Source: [Ruminococcus] lactaris ATCC 29176
GTDB taxonomy: Bacteria; Bacillota; Clostridia; Lachnospirales; Lachnospiraceae
Direction of reading: 5' to 3'
DNA: 64,000 nucleotides
Assembly (NCBI RefSeq): GCF_025152405.1
Contig: NZ_CP102292.1
Span: 1,426,001 to 1,490,000, forward strand
The translations under genes and the position numbers were made by a program. The notes beneath the pieces were generated by a model. The model saw only the letters and a list, made by a program, of their open reading frames with translations. It made no database searches and was not told the origin of the DNA. Below are positions 40,054-59,791 of this stretch, piece by piece. The first letter of the stretch is position 1. Each line of letters starts with the position of its first letter.

Positions 40054-40398
40054 TTAAAGTGCCAATTTGTATAACGCTAATTGATTAAGGCTTACGCCTT
40101 CTTTGTCTGCTTCGATTGCTAAACGCTGATGTAATGACTTAGGCAGCCTTACAACAAACTTCCCGCTATAGTTGTTTACTGATTCCGGTACAGGAATTGC
40201 TAAATTATTTTCTAACTTAACTTCTATATATCCTTCCATAGCTTCGTTAAGGCTTTCGTATAATTCGTCTAACGTATCGCCTGTACTTTGGCAGCCGTCC
40301 AGTTCTAAGATTCTTCCGTAAAAGTAATGCCCGCTTTCGTCGTTCATTTCCTGTACTAATCTTGTATATGGCAGCTTCATATAATCTTTAACTTCCAT
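40054..40398 (-). CDS. hicB: HicB antitoxin
   Basis: A 114-aa protein. A partial RNase H-like HicB fold is about 12-70 (YFYGRILELDGCQSTGDTLD, LYESLNEAMEGYIE). A C-terminal ribbon-helix-helix DNA-binding part is about 80-114 (KFVVRLPKSLHQRLAIEADK). It neutralises HicA and represses the hicAB promoter. The ATG at 40398 has AAGGAG 8 bases upstream. It follows hicA after 50 bp and ends 18 bp from the right att core. The pair probably stabilises the element. Confidence 0.9.
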   Translation of the reverse strand: MEVKDYMKLPYTRLVQEMNDESGHYFYGRILELDGCQSTGDTLDELYESLNEAMEGYIEVKLENNLAIPVPESVNNYSGKFVVRLPKSLHQRLAIEADKEGVSLNQLALYKLAL

Positions 40399-40448
40399 TG
40401 CTCGCACTCCTTCCTTCTTACTCTTATATTATATCCATGTTAGGGGAT

Positions 40449-40874: not shown

Positions 40875-42323
40875 CTATAATGCGTAAAAATCGTCTTCGT
40901 TTATGTATTCCCGTAACTGGAATAGATCAGCCGTAAGAATACCCGTAGCTTCTGCTATATCTACTTCTTCGACTACTGCCGCCTGGCTCTTTTCTACTGC
41001 TTCCTGGATCTGTCTTTCTGCTTTCTTTGTGTCAGATTCTGACACCTTCTTAACCGTCTTCTTTATCGTATTTTTCAGCGTTTCCACTACTCCGAAGTAC
41101 CCGGCTTCTAGCATAGCTTCCAGCAGTTCCATTAGTTCGTAGTCCCTAAGATACTCTTTGTGCTGTTTGTCCTGGCTTTCTACGTTAAATCCCCGGTTAT
41201 CGAAGTACACCGTATACTCTTTTCCTTCATGCTTAAAGCCGTAGTTTCTCTTTCCTGGCTCATACCTTCTGCACTGCACAGATTTATCTACTGCATCAAA
41301 GTTTGTTTTTGCTTCAGCTATTTTAGACGAATCTCCGCCCGCTAGTGCATCATTATATTCTTGCACTGCCTTTGAATAATCACTCATCCACTTCGCAGCT
41401 GTCTGAACCACTCCATTAGTACCTTTATATTGTGTTGAATCAGCAGCTAATTCGGCAGCTTTTGCCTGTTCATACACCTCTTGATATTTATCCAGAATTT
41501 CATTCGCATCTTTCAGACCGCTTTCAGAATTGCTGAATATAGCATCCAGTACATATGCATAATCGCCACCAAGCTCATCTGATGCCTTACGTACATCAGT
41601 CATAAAATCATTCAGAGCAGCTTCTGCTTGTGAAGCATCTCCATTGAAGAAGATCATGTCATTGCTTGATGTGATTAGATCACCATATTTTTCTTGAGAT
41701 GCTGCTAATGCTTTCTTGATTGCTTCTGACGCAGGGTCTACTGCCTCTTCAAAATATTCACCAAGGAAATAATTACGCTGCTTCTCCATTTCCTTTGTTG
41801 CTTTGTTGATGCCTTCTTGATTTTCATTCAGATATTTATTCGCATCTGATTGGCTTAAGTGTTCCATAAGACCAATCTGCTCGCGCAGAGATCCATTTAC
41901 AAGGTCAATACCTTCAGCTTGACTTCCATATGCCTCAGTAAGCATTTCCTGAATTGATAGCAACTCAGATTTTGCTTGATATGCTTCAGATTCTGTTAGT
42001 GACCCAGATGCTAACTGATCACGCAATTCTACGACTCTGTTCTTATATTCTTCGATAGAATGATTAGATTCCTGCCATGCGTTTCCAGCTTCCTGAGCAG
42101 CTTGAACTTGTTCTTGAATATAGTTGTTGTATGCTTTCCATACAAGAAATGCGGCACCGATACCAGCAATCGCAAGTGTGAGAGGACTGATTGCACCAAG
42201 CATACCTTCAAATGCTAATTGAGCCGCAGCACCAGCATCCGCTAAAGATTTTATTCCACTGGCTGCCTTACCAACAGACAATAGACTTATCGGTGATTTC
42301 ATGGTAAAATTGAATAAAATCAA
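40875..42323 (-). pseudogene. Truncated phage tail tape-measure protein fused to an unrelated phage protein tail
   Basis: Residues ~10-350 resemble the middle of a phage tail tape-measure protein: Ala-rich hydrophobic SPLTLAIAGIGAAFLVWKAY followed by long coiled coil with SLTESEAYQAKSELLSIQEM. The N-terminal part is missing; the frame simply opens near 42300. At about 41275 the character changes to CRRYEPGKRNYGFKHEGKEY, with an EYLRDYELMELLEAMLEAGY segment and Lys-rich helices. I cannot assign that part, but it does not look like tape measure. The frame is uninterrupted, so an internal deletion joined two genes in frame. No other tail genes remain. Probably non-functional. Confidence 0.7.
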
Positions 42324-43155: not shown

Positions 43156-43269
43156 CCAGTTTCCCAGCAATTGGTCGGACACAACATAAAGGATATAACA
43201 GAATCAACTTACACGGTTCGAGACGTAGAATGGCTACGAACAGATTTGGAAAAGTTGGACCAAAAATGA
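43156..43269 (+). pseudogene. Tyrosine recombinase (integrase) C-terminal relic
   Basis: The frame 43156-43269 reads QQLVGHNIKDITESTYTVRD followed by VEWLRTDLEKLDQK and TGA. This matches the end of a phage-type tyrosine integrase: the GH motif and the catalytic Tyr in STYT, then the closing helix. Upstream in this frame is TAA (43153), and the expected catalytic Arg region is only vaguely traceable in shifted frames (around 43095-43130). It therefore looks decayed. It points toward the left att site 140 bp downstream, where an integrase gene is expected. Confidence 0.6.
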
Positions 43270-43299
43270 GGGAATAGCAACAACGCTACTCCCTCTTTT
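43268..43299 (+). terminator. Terminator after the integrase relic
   Basis: GAGGGAATAGC pairs with GCTACTCCCTC around AACAAC, followed by TTTT. Confidence 0.65.
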
Positions 43300-43412: not shown

Positions 43413-43447
43413 TTAGAACTTACCAGCCTTAGCAGCTTCCTCAACAG
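43413..43447. repeat. attL-like copy of the 35-bp direct repeat
   Basis: Identical to 40002-40036; it restores the 3' end and stop codon of the GGGtGRT gene after integration. Confidence 0.85.
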
Positions 43448-44423
43448 CTACTGCAACGGCTACAGTCATACCAACCATCGGGTTGTTACCAGCACCGATC
43501 AGACCCATCATCTCAACATGAGCCGGTACAGATGAAGATCCAGCGAACTGTGCATCAGAATGCATACGTCCCATTGTATCTGTCATACCGTAAGAAGCCG
43601 GTCCTGCTGCCATGTTGTCCGGGTGAAGTGTACGTCCTGTACCACCACCTGAAGCAACTGAGAAATATTTCTTTCCAGCTTCAAGACGCTCTTTCTTATA
43701 TGTTCCTGCTACCGGGTGCTGGAATCTTGTCGGGTTTGTAGAGTTTCCTGTGATGGATACATCTACGTTCTCTTTCCACATGATCTTAACACCTTCTACT
43801 ACGTCGTTAGCTCCGTAGCAGTTAACTTTTGCACGAAGTCCGTCAGAATAAGCCTTACGGAATACTTCTTTCAGCTCTCCTGTATGATAGTCAAGCTCTG
43901 TCTCAACATATGTAAATCCGTTGATACGTGCAATGATCTGAGCAGCGTCTTTTCCAAGACCGTTCAGGATAACACGAAGAGGTTTCTTACGAACCTTATT
44001 TGCTTTCTCTGCGATACCGATTGCACCCTCTGCTGCTGCGAATGACTCGTGTCCAGCCAGGAATGCGAAGCACTCTGTATCCTCTTCAAGAAGCATCTTT
44101 CCAAGGTTACCATGTCCAAGACCAACTTTTCTCTGATCTGCAACAGATCCCGGAATACAGAAAGACTGAAGTCCCTCTCCGATTGCTGCTGCTGCGTCTG
44201 CTGCCTTTGTACATCCCTTTTTGATTGCGATAGCTGCACCTACAGTGTAAGCCCATTTTGCGTTCTCAAAACAGATTGGCTGGATTCCCTCGATCATCTT
44301 GTAAACATCAAGACCGGCTGCTTTCGTTACTTCAGCAGCTTCTTCGATGGAGTTGATTCCATACTCAGCAAGTTTTGCAAGAATCTGTTTCTCTCTTCTT
44401 TCATATGATTCAAATAATGCCAT
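43413..44423 (-). CDS. GGGtGRT family protein
   Basis: A 336-aa protein containing the eponymous motif in SVASGGGTGRTLHPDNMAAG. Other segments are GEGLQSFCIPGSVADQRKVG, GHGNLGKMLLEEDTECFAFL and RVILNGLGKDAAQIIARING. The family is conserved in anaerobic Firmicutes next to NifU-like scaffolds, and its biochemical role is not established; involvement in Fe-S or metal handling is inferred from the neighbour. RBS AAGGAGG, 14 bp after the NifU-like stop. The last ten codons are supplied by the att core of the 3.4-kb element. Confidence 0.88.
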   Translation of the reverse strand: MALFESYERREKQILAKLAEYGINSIEEAAEVTKAAGLDVYKMIEGIQPICFENAKWAYTVGAAIAIKKGCTKAADAAAAIGEGLQSFCIPGSVADQRKVGLGHGNLGKMLLEEDTECFAFLAGHESFAAAEGAIGIAEKANKVRKKPLRVILNGLGKDAAQIIARINGFTYVETELDYHTGELKEVFRKAYSDGLRAKVNCYGANDVVEGVKIMWKENVDVSITGNSTNPTRFQHPVAGTYKKERLEAGKKYFSVASGGGTGRTLHPDNMAAGPASYGMTDTMGRMHSDAQFAGSSSVPAHVEMMGLIGAGNNPMVGMTVAVAVAVEEAAKAGKF

Positions 44424-44437
44424 TGAAATAGTCCTCC

Positions 44438-45130
44438 TTACTCTTTTCTCGGGTCAATGATCTTAACAGCATCGTCAACACGTCCATACTGTCCTTTTGC
44501 TTTTTCAAGAGCAACAGCAGGCTCGTCTCCGGCTTTGATGAAATCCATCATCTTGCCAAAGTTTACGAACTGATATCCGATGATCTCATCATCTTCATTC
44601 AGTGCGATTCCTGTTACATAACCATCTGTCATCTCAAGATAACGAGGTCCCTTTTTCAGTGTACCGTACATTGTACCAACCTGTGAACGAAGTCCTTTTC
44701 CAAGGTCTTCCAGTCCTGCTCCGATCGGAAGTCCGTCCTCTGAGAATGCACTCTGAGTTCTTCCGTAAACGATCTGAAGGAACAGTTCTCTCATAGCTGT
44801 ATTGATCGCATCACAGACAAGGTCTGTATTCAGTGCTTCAAGAAGTGTTCTTCCCGGAAGGATCTCAGAAGCCATAGCTGCGGAATGAGTCATTCCTGAA
44901 CATCCGATTGTCTCAACAAGTGCCTCCTGGATGATTCCGTCTTTTACGTTCAGTGTCAGCTTACAAGTACCCTGCTGTGGAGCACACCAGCCTACACCAT
45001 GCGTAAGTCCGGAGATATCTTTGATTTCTTTTGCCTTTACCCATTTAGCTTCTTCTGGAATTGGAGCTGCGCCATGGTTTACGCCCTGGGCTACCGGACA
45101 CATCATTTCTACTTCGTGTGAATAAATCAT
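44438..45130 (-). CDS. NifU/IscU-like iron-sulfur scaffold protein
   Basis: A 230-aa protein. Conserved cysteines lie in HGVGWCAPQQGTCKLTLNVK and ALVETIGCSGMTHSAAMASE, the arrangement seen in the NifU N-terminal-like proteins that accompany GGGtGRT. The start MIYSHEVEMMCPVAQGVNHG at 45130 has GGAG upstream. A longer frame reaching 45277 crosses a terminator-like leader and is rejected. It probably assembles or carries Fe-S clusters in the cytosol. It is first in a two-gene unit with GGGtGRT, behind a structured leader. Confidence 0.85.
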   Translation of the reverse strand: MIYSHEVEMMCPVAQGVNHGAAPIPEEAKWVKAKEIKDISGLTHGVGWCAPQQGTCKLTLNVKDGIIQEALVETIGCSGMTHSAAMASEILPGRTLLEALNTDLVCDAINTAMRELFLQIVYGRTQSAFSEDGLPIGAGLEDLGKGLRSQVGTMYGTLKKGPRYLEMTDGYVTGIALNEDDEIIGYQFVNFGKMMDFIKAGDEPAVALEKAKGQYGRVDDAVKIIDPRKE

Positions 45131-45188
45131 GTTAATACTCCTTTCAATATGTATGATTTTCTTCGTATACGGTACACTTTTTCGCACT

Positions 45189-45294
45189 AAAAAGGGCTCA
45201 GAGAACCCTTTCTTCCTATGCATGATACTCTTCCTGTTCACCGTGGCACACCTGTCTGCCCCGGATGCCTGTACCATAGAAAAAGGTGTGCCAC
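45189..45294 (-). promoter_or_regulatory. Structured leader with intrinsic terminator ahead of the NifU/GGGtGRT unit
   Basis: Read on minus: an 11-bp stem GTGGCACACCT/AGGTGTGCCAC (45284-45294 with 45243-45253) with a ~30-base G/C-rich loop. Then the hairpin AAAGGGTTC-TCT-GAGCCCTTT running into T's (45189-45211), about 60 bases before the start codon. That is the form of an attenuator or riboswitch expression platform. I cannot match it to a known class. A weak promoter (TTGACG at 45354-45359) would give a leader of ~200 bases. Confidence 0.45.
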
Positions 45295-45387
45295 CTGCCG
45301 CACACTTTTCTCATTGCACCATATGTATTTATTTTCGCACAATTTACCTCATTCGTCAATCATTACTTTGACAAGATTTTCACTAAG

Positions 45388-59423: not shown

Positions 59424-59791
59424 CGTGCCGAGCAAAACGATAAGCCGGGTTATGTCGTTGGACAATCATCTGTCTAGGCATCACGTTACCGCAATGCTCA
59501 AGCGACCTACCTGAAACGTGACGGGCAGCCACATGGTTTCTATCCGGTCTTGCTTCGGATGGGGTTTACATATGCCCTCGCTGTTACCAGAGAGGCGGTA
59601 GTCTCTTACACTGCCTTTCCACCCTTACCACAGAAAAGTGACCTTTACTGTGGCGGTTTATTTCTGTTGCACTGGCCTTGGAGTCACCTCCACCGGACGT
59701 TATCCGGCATCCTGCCCTTTGAAGCCCGGACTTTCCTCGTCTGCAGCCTTTCGGCATTTGCCTCCGCGATTGTCTGTCTTACTCAGCACAT
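59424..59791 (-). ncRNA. rnpB: RNase P RNA, bacterial type A
   Basis: Universally conserved RNase P blocks are visible on the minus strand. GAGGAAAGTCCGGGCTTC lies near the 5' end (about 59745-59728). The complement of GATAAGCCGGGTTATGTCG lies near the 3' end (about 59449-59467), carrying the CCA-contacting region. The ~368-base size fits type A, as in Clostridia. The predicted start from the -10 box (59798-59803) agrees with the 5' end of the fold. It processes 5' leaders of pre-tRNA; its modulator YlxR is encoded at 21.6-21.9 kb. Ends are accurate to a few bases. Confidence 0.95.

Follow-up and report, generated by a model that had tools for sequence, protein, structure and literature searches.

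The window analysed here, a stretch of 64,000 nucleotides from [Ruminococcus] lactaris ATCC 29176, contains on its minus strand a two-gene operon with a leader of about 194 nt, driven by the promoter at 45359-45331 (Table 1). The first-pass annotation had described the genes as a NifU/GGGtGRT pair. The second half of this label is borne out by the Pfam match of the second gene; to our knowledge, no function is known for GGGtGRT proteins. The first gene product is only weakly NifU/IscU-like (TIGR03419, E = 1.3e-5, below the curated cut-off of NCBIfam), and a Pfam search with it gave no match. We place its start codon at the ATG at 45130, and related proteins align from residue 1. Upstream of this codon, the frame continues without a stop across the leader as far as an ATG at 45277 (44438-45277, minus strand), and gene callers may therefore wrongly extend the protein by 49 residues. 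The NifU-like protein is present in 51 of the 58 genomes of the genus to which the window belongs (Mediterraneibacter) and in 170 of the 200 genomes of a family sample with one genome per genus. Also on the minus strand lie a gene for a HicB-type antitoxin-like protein (40054-40407; PF05534, PF15919) and a frame of 482 amino acids (40875-42323) without a match in a Pfam search. By eye, we take the latter to resemble part of a phage tape-measure protein, and it is possibly a decayed prophage adjoining the operon.

Table 1. Features of the NifU-like/GGGtGRT operon and its leader, in order of transcription (window positions).
Feature	Position	Strand	Evidence or remark
Promoter TTGACG - 17 nt - GAAAAT, TG-extended -10	45331..45359	minus	Scan, 9/12 matches
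P1, 5' strand ATATGGTGCA	45315..45324	minus	MFE, covariation; begins at predicted +1
P2 hairpin, core GTGTGC-GGCAGGTG-GCACAC (45305-45286)	45279..45312	minus	Covariation; terminator-like by scan
11-bp stem, arm 1	45284..45294	minus	Overlaps 3' half of P2
11-bp stem, arm 2	45243..45253	minus	Not in sister leader L032
U-run hairpin AAAGGGTTC-TCT-GAGCCCTTTTT	45189..45211	minus	Possible weak intrinsic terminator
P1, 3' strand TGTACCGTAT	45167..45176	minus	MFE, covariation; P1 paired in 98% of cells of alignment A2
Shine-Dalgarno sequence GAAAGGAG	45138..45145	minus	In stretch conserved across genus
NifU/IscU-like gene (230 aa), operon gene 1	44438..45130	minus	Weak NCBIfam NifU/IscU match
GGGtGRT protein gene, operon gene 2	43413..44423	minus	PF14057, 623 bits
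Terminator-like hairpin 3' of operon	43268..43295	minus	Scan

The promoter elements GATTGACGAAT and ATGNGAAAATA are almost invariant among 49 promoters of the genus, and a looser form of both is recognisable in 59 promoters of the family; the promoter sequence has a single exact copy in its own genome. From the end of the -10 region at 45331, transcription is predicted to start near 45324, about 7 nt further on. Family-wide conservation around the -35 and -10 regions of this operon extends far past both hexamers (GACKAAT, TGNGAAAATA), and G is the first base of the -10 region in the conserved family promoters. It is possible that a regulator site overlaps the operon promoter.

The leader as a whole folds with -57.8 kcal/mol (z = -3.27), a value reached by one of 200 shuffled sequences. 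Its P2 hairpin has a loop of 8 nt containing CAGG and is directly followed by a T-run (CTTTTTC). The first-pass annotation had pointed out a long stem and, about 60 bases before the start codon, a hairpin with a T-run, and both are present. The stem is a perfect 11-bp inverted repeat (45294-45284/45253-45243). Dinucleotide shuffling of the 230-nt region produced such a repeat in only 6 of 3000 sequences, but 13 of the 278 tiles into which the window was divided contain one. Since the 3' arm of P2 doubles as an arm of this stem, the two structures compete. The hairpin, which can also be written AAAGGGTTC-TCT-GAGCCCTTT, ends 58 nt before the ATG and carries a T-run of five followed by AG. We also agree that the leader is unlike any named riboswitch class: Rfam 15 gave no match in the leader at the gathering score, and only nonsense families at E <= 10. 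Sixteen loci of relatives likewise had no Rfam match. The sole match in the window at the gathering score is the class A RNase P RNA at 59425-59785 (minus strand).

For comparison, we read the leaders of 118 loci in addition to the window. Out of these 119, six without a promoter call and two low-scoring ones were dropped, which left 61 leaders of the family (drawn from 29 relatives and 40 further genomes, all among the 170 of the family in which a NifU match was found) and 50 of the genus, the latter from 49 genomes because G232 contributes two. For typing the genus leaders, three identical rows were omitted. The 46 distinct genus leaders besides the window comprise 27 of a short type, in which the ribosome site follows after about 90 nt, 11 of a long type (about 155-164 nt), three with a Rex-like site, four that are shorter still, and L041, which has a U-run hairpin of its own. 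P1 occurs in both the short and the long type and P2 in most of these leaders; the CAGG loop and the covarying stem of P2 are common to most leaders of the genus. The long type contains an extra hairpin, GACAGTCC...GGACTGTC, followed by GG, GA or AG, then TTTTT and GTGCG. This GTGCG pairs back to an upstream CGCAC, and the resulting outer helix CGCACA/TGTGCG is paired in 96% of cells, so that the U-run of the sister leaders sits within a larger helix. The U-run hairpin of the window stands at the position of GACAGTCC...GGACTGTC-GGTTTTTGTGCG in its sisters; compared with the sister leader, its stem letters are replaced, while T-run and position are kept.

These helices show compensatory changes. 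P1 and P2 pair in 89% of cells in the short set of 27 leaders, compared with 22-64% in slid controls, and the four helices of the long set (12 leaders; P1, P2 and two further helices) pair in 96%, compared with 18-53%. Changes on both sides of a pair were found in nine cells of the short set (shuffled mean 1.5) and in ten cells of the long set (shuffled mean 2.6), and none of 500 shuffles was as high in either case. RNAalifold, run unaided, recovers only P1 in the short set and both P1 and P2 in the long set. P1 and P2 therefore constitute a conserved structured RNA with compensatory changes, although the numbers are small (9 and 10 cells) and come from one genus. With a covariance model, matches at E <= 3e-5 were obtained in 50 of the 58 genus genomes. 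Of these 51 matches, 47 lie directly before the NifU gene; the other four are on separate contigs of draft assemblies, where this gene is either broken or was missed by the search. Outside the operon, nothing but contig fragments was detected at this threshold, and the five remaining matches have E-values of 0.06-0.1. Of the eight genomes lacking a match, three (G211, G216, G247) are of the Rex type, and the other five had given no NifU match either. The leader is thus a genus-level structured RNA confined to this operon. Weaker matches score partly through the conserved stretch at the ribosome site: L043 still reaches 2e-5, although it and the identical L078 lack the leader structure altogether, which implies that this structure is not essential. 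The sequence GAAGAAAATCATACATATTGAAAGGAG before the start codon is nearly invariant in the genus, even in L043 (L043:1462-1493). Short frames after an ATG in the leader differ in frame and length among the relatives when compared by eye, and we rejected a leader peptide. We also rejected a dispersed repeat as the carrier of the sisters' U-run hairpin: its exact and one-mismatch copies sit at the NifU leader or on a G215 contig fragment with a leader match, with two one-mismatch matches elsewhere as the exceptions.

From the arrangement of stem and hairpin, the first-pass annotation had concluded that termination is controlled by a ligand or protein, and this does not agree with the predicted folding. 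In simulations of the growing transcript of the window, P2 forms first (0.99); thereafter the ratio of P2 to the 11-bp stem is 0.73/0.27, later 0.05/0.95, and 0.87/0.13 in the full leader. The U-run hairpin, in every computed state that contains it, has a probability of 0.998-1.000. Two upstream structures thus compete, but the terminator helix is independent of the outcome, whichever of them dominates, and none of the computed folding states revealed a mutually exclusive terminator and antiterminator. The 11-bp stem was considered as an antiterminator of P2 and rejected, because its 3' arm is made only after the T-run of P2. Nor is there a conserved expression platform: a loose screen found a U-run hairpin in just 13 of the 50 genus leaders and in 7 of the 61 family leaders, and the 11-bp stem is missing in L032. 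By a d-score after d'Aubenton Carafa, the hairpin of the window reaches -3.3 (-34.6 if its stem is extended into the T-run) and the hairpin after the operon -8.7, whereas six long-type sisters score -46 to -54 and L041 -34; these seven are the relatives scored among the 12 that have a U-run hairpin. The hairpin of the window may still stop some transcripts. Like terminator riboswitches and protein-bound attenuators, the leader places a U-run hairpin within a structured RNA before a gene; unlike them, it has an unconserved terminator, no antiterminator that we could find and no Rfam match. The first-pass annotation had also stated that its reading would fail if the leader were not conserved upstream of other GGGtGRT operons and premature termination were lacking. 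On the former point, the leader is indeed not conserved there: other GGGtGRT operons carry a Rex-like operator or unrelated hairpins.

Rex is a repressor that senses NADH/NAD+. Many leaders outside the genus contain GTGTTAAAGTTATAACAA or a near variant 8-15 nt past the -10 region, a palindrome resembling the Rex operators of Clostridia, for which PMC8457756 quotes the consensus TTGTTAANNNNTTAACAA. We scored such sites against TTGTKAANNNNTTMACAA with a threshold of 11/14. A site scoring at least 11/14 was found in 27 of the 61 family leaders but in 4.1% of shuffles, and in a second set in 14 of 37 leaders, among them that of Faecalicatena contorta ET55, but in 4.0% of shuffles. This second set derives from 80 loci minus one that was too short, 13 duplicates and 29 without this promoter. 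When the half-sites were permuted, one of 419 did as well (KTGTTAA, 28), and it is a near-variant of the Rex half-site. In a class-wide set of 40 upstream regions from 66 GGGtGRT genomes (in which L172 is cut by the contig end and has a misplaced start), eight contained sites of at least 12/14, compared with 3.1% of shuffles, which is a weak excess. Within the genus, the site is present in only three of 50 leaders; the other 47, that of the window among them, lack the palindrome, and the best score in the leader of the window is 9/14, equal to background.

The GTTA...TAAC element was at first considered as a possible RNA stem. It lies at the expected distance in 26 distinct leaders, 23 from the family and three from the genus, and in 13 of them all four RNA pairs within the palindrome are intact. 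Because the stem is broken in half of the sites, we read the element as a DNA site. The genome of the window itself contains one rex gene (PF06971). Its best Rex-like site, GTGTTAAATTATTAACAA, has one mismatch and precedes a gene that, judging its translation by eye, we take to be adhE, a usual Rex target. The pattern with three mismatches occurs 195 times per strand, compared with 257 for the reversed-pattern control, so only the best sites are meaningful. Taken together, the relatives appear to carry a Rex operator beyond chance, with the evidence for the regulator coming from the window's own genome, and we infer that Rex controls the operon in those relatives that bear the site. A link between Rex and the NifU-like/GGGtGRT pair is apparently unreported in the literature searched; an earlier regulon prediction of it may exist outside that literature.

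The two kinds of leader occur in close relatives. In a tree built from 34 NifU genes, the Rex-type L033 and L034 are the lineages nearest to the window and its sister L032, which are both of the long type; the support for this group is 100/100. Leader types require 11 changes on the tree; the root of this tree is arbitrary, and a gene tree need not equal the species tree. Rex-type and structured leaders thus seem to replace each other over short distances, and direct Rex control may have been lost in the lineage of the window. Family leaders without a Rex-like site have a median fold z of -2.34 (21 of 35 below -2) with hairpins unrelated to each other, compared with -1.23 (6 of 23 below -2) for those with the site. 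Of the leaders that lack a Rex site, 42 of 43 in the genus and 28 of 35 in the family have a helix that begins no more than 8 nt from the predicted start, compared with about 60% in shuffles (62% for the family). The same holds for 21 of 23 Rex-type leaders, so that this excess is not specific to Rex-less ones. By eye, Rex-type and window-type leaders seemed to share an ancestral P1, but the pairing of the arms on either side of the Rex-like sites did not exceed that with shuffled partners (141/2000 as low), and we make no such claim.

How can the leader be explained? We favor, with about an even chance of being right, the view that the leader is a passive stem-loop at the 5' end, possibly combined with some unregulated termination, and that it stands where relatives place the Rex operator. 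According to this model, RNA polymerase would start at the first base of P1, as suggested by the position of the -10 region, and the finished mRNA would therefore begin base-paired. P1 would close over P2 and, in this species, the U-run hairpin. Such a 5' stem-loop would keep the end of the mRNA structured and thereby slow 5'-end-dependent decay, the U-run hairpin may stop a constant fraction of the transcripts, and the leader would not toggle between mutually exclusive structures. Structure that is kept while its sequence drifts fits such a passive role. Stem-loops that stabilise mRNA from its 5' end are known and are cited in PMC3997798, among them the leader of aprE in Bacillus subtilis. 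With these the leader of the window shares a stem-loop at or near the start, P1 being located at the predicted +1, and a free ribosome site. It differs from them in being longer and in having several hairpins. If the hairpin rather served to set the dosage of the operon as a constitutive partial terminator, stopping a fixed share of transcripts, its stem with TTTTT, a d-score resembling that of the hairpin after the operon, and the retention of T-run and position despite changed stem letters would be accounted for; with a T-run of just five followed by AG, and with the hairpin missing from most of the genus, we consider this unlikely.

The 8-nt CAGG loop of P2 is over-conserved for a passive stem, and a protein or ligand could therefore bind it. 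This would suit an attenuator in which binding to P1 or P2 decides whether the U-run hairpin forms, as would the occurrence, within one leader, of two hairpins with a U-run and of an 11-bp stem that competes, and the iron response of the operon elsewhere. Against it stand the constant terminator probability in all computed states, the absence of the 11-bp stem from the sister and of the U-run hairpin from most genus leaders, and the d-scores of the sisters, which are far below those of usual terminators and belong to U-runs inside an outer helix; such regulation is distinctly unlikely. To about the same degree we doubt that the leader is a functionless remnant of a lost Rex operator plus insertions. 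The frequent changes of type on the NifU tree and the two leaders without structure would suit such neutrality, but the compensatory changes in P1 and P2 exceed both shuffles and slid controls, and the fold is more stable than expected from its shuffles. It is very unlikely that a genus-specific RNA sensor, made up of P1 and the CAGG-loop P2, succeeded the Rex operator at the same position; if it did, a redox or iron-sulfur operon would have moved from DNA- to RNA-level control within one family.

The first-pass annotation had further suggested that the leader might report on iron. An iron response does exist at the level of the genes: iron raises the level of the GGGtGRT protein of C. pasteurianum 7.1- and 2.2-fold (PMC5395762), and PMC10434189 lists BT0173-74 of B. 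thetaiotaomicron as reduced 11- to 12.8-fold under iron deficiency. The data from both species have no direct bearing on the leader of the window, and nothing ties the response to it. By itself, the passive leader that we favor would be ordinary, and the Rex-like operator of the relatives is the more useful result. With operator DNA and structured leaders replacing each other at a single site, this operon is a useful case of regulatory rewiring, and the Rex-like operator, together with the published iron dependence, points to a role of GGGtGRT proteins in redox or iron-sulfur metabolism.
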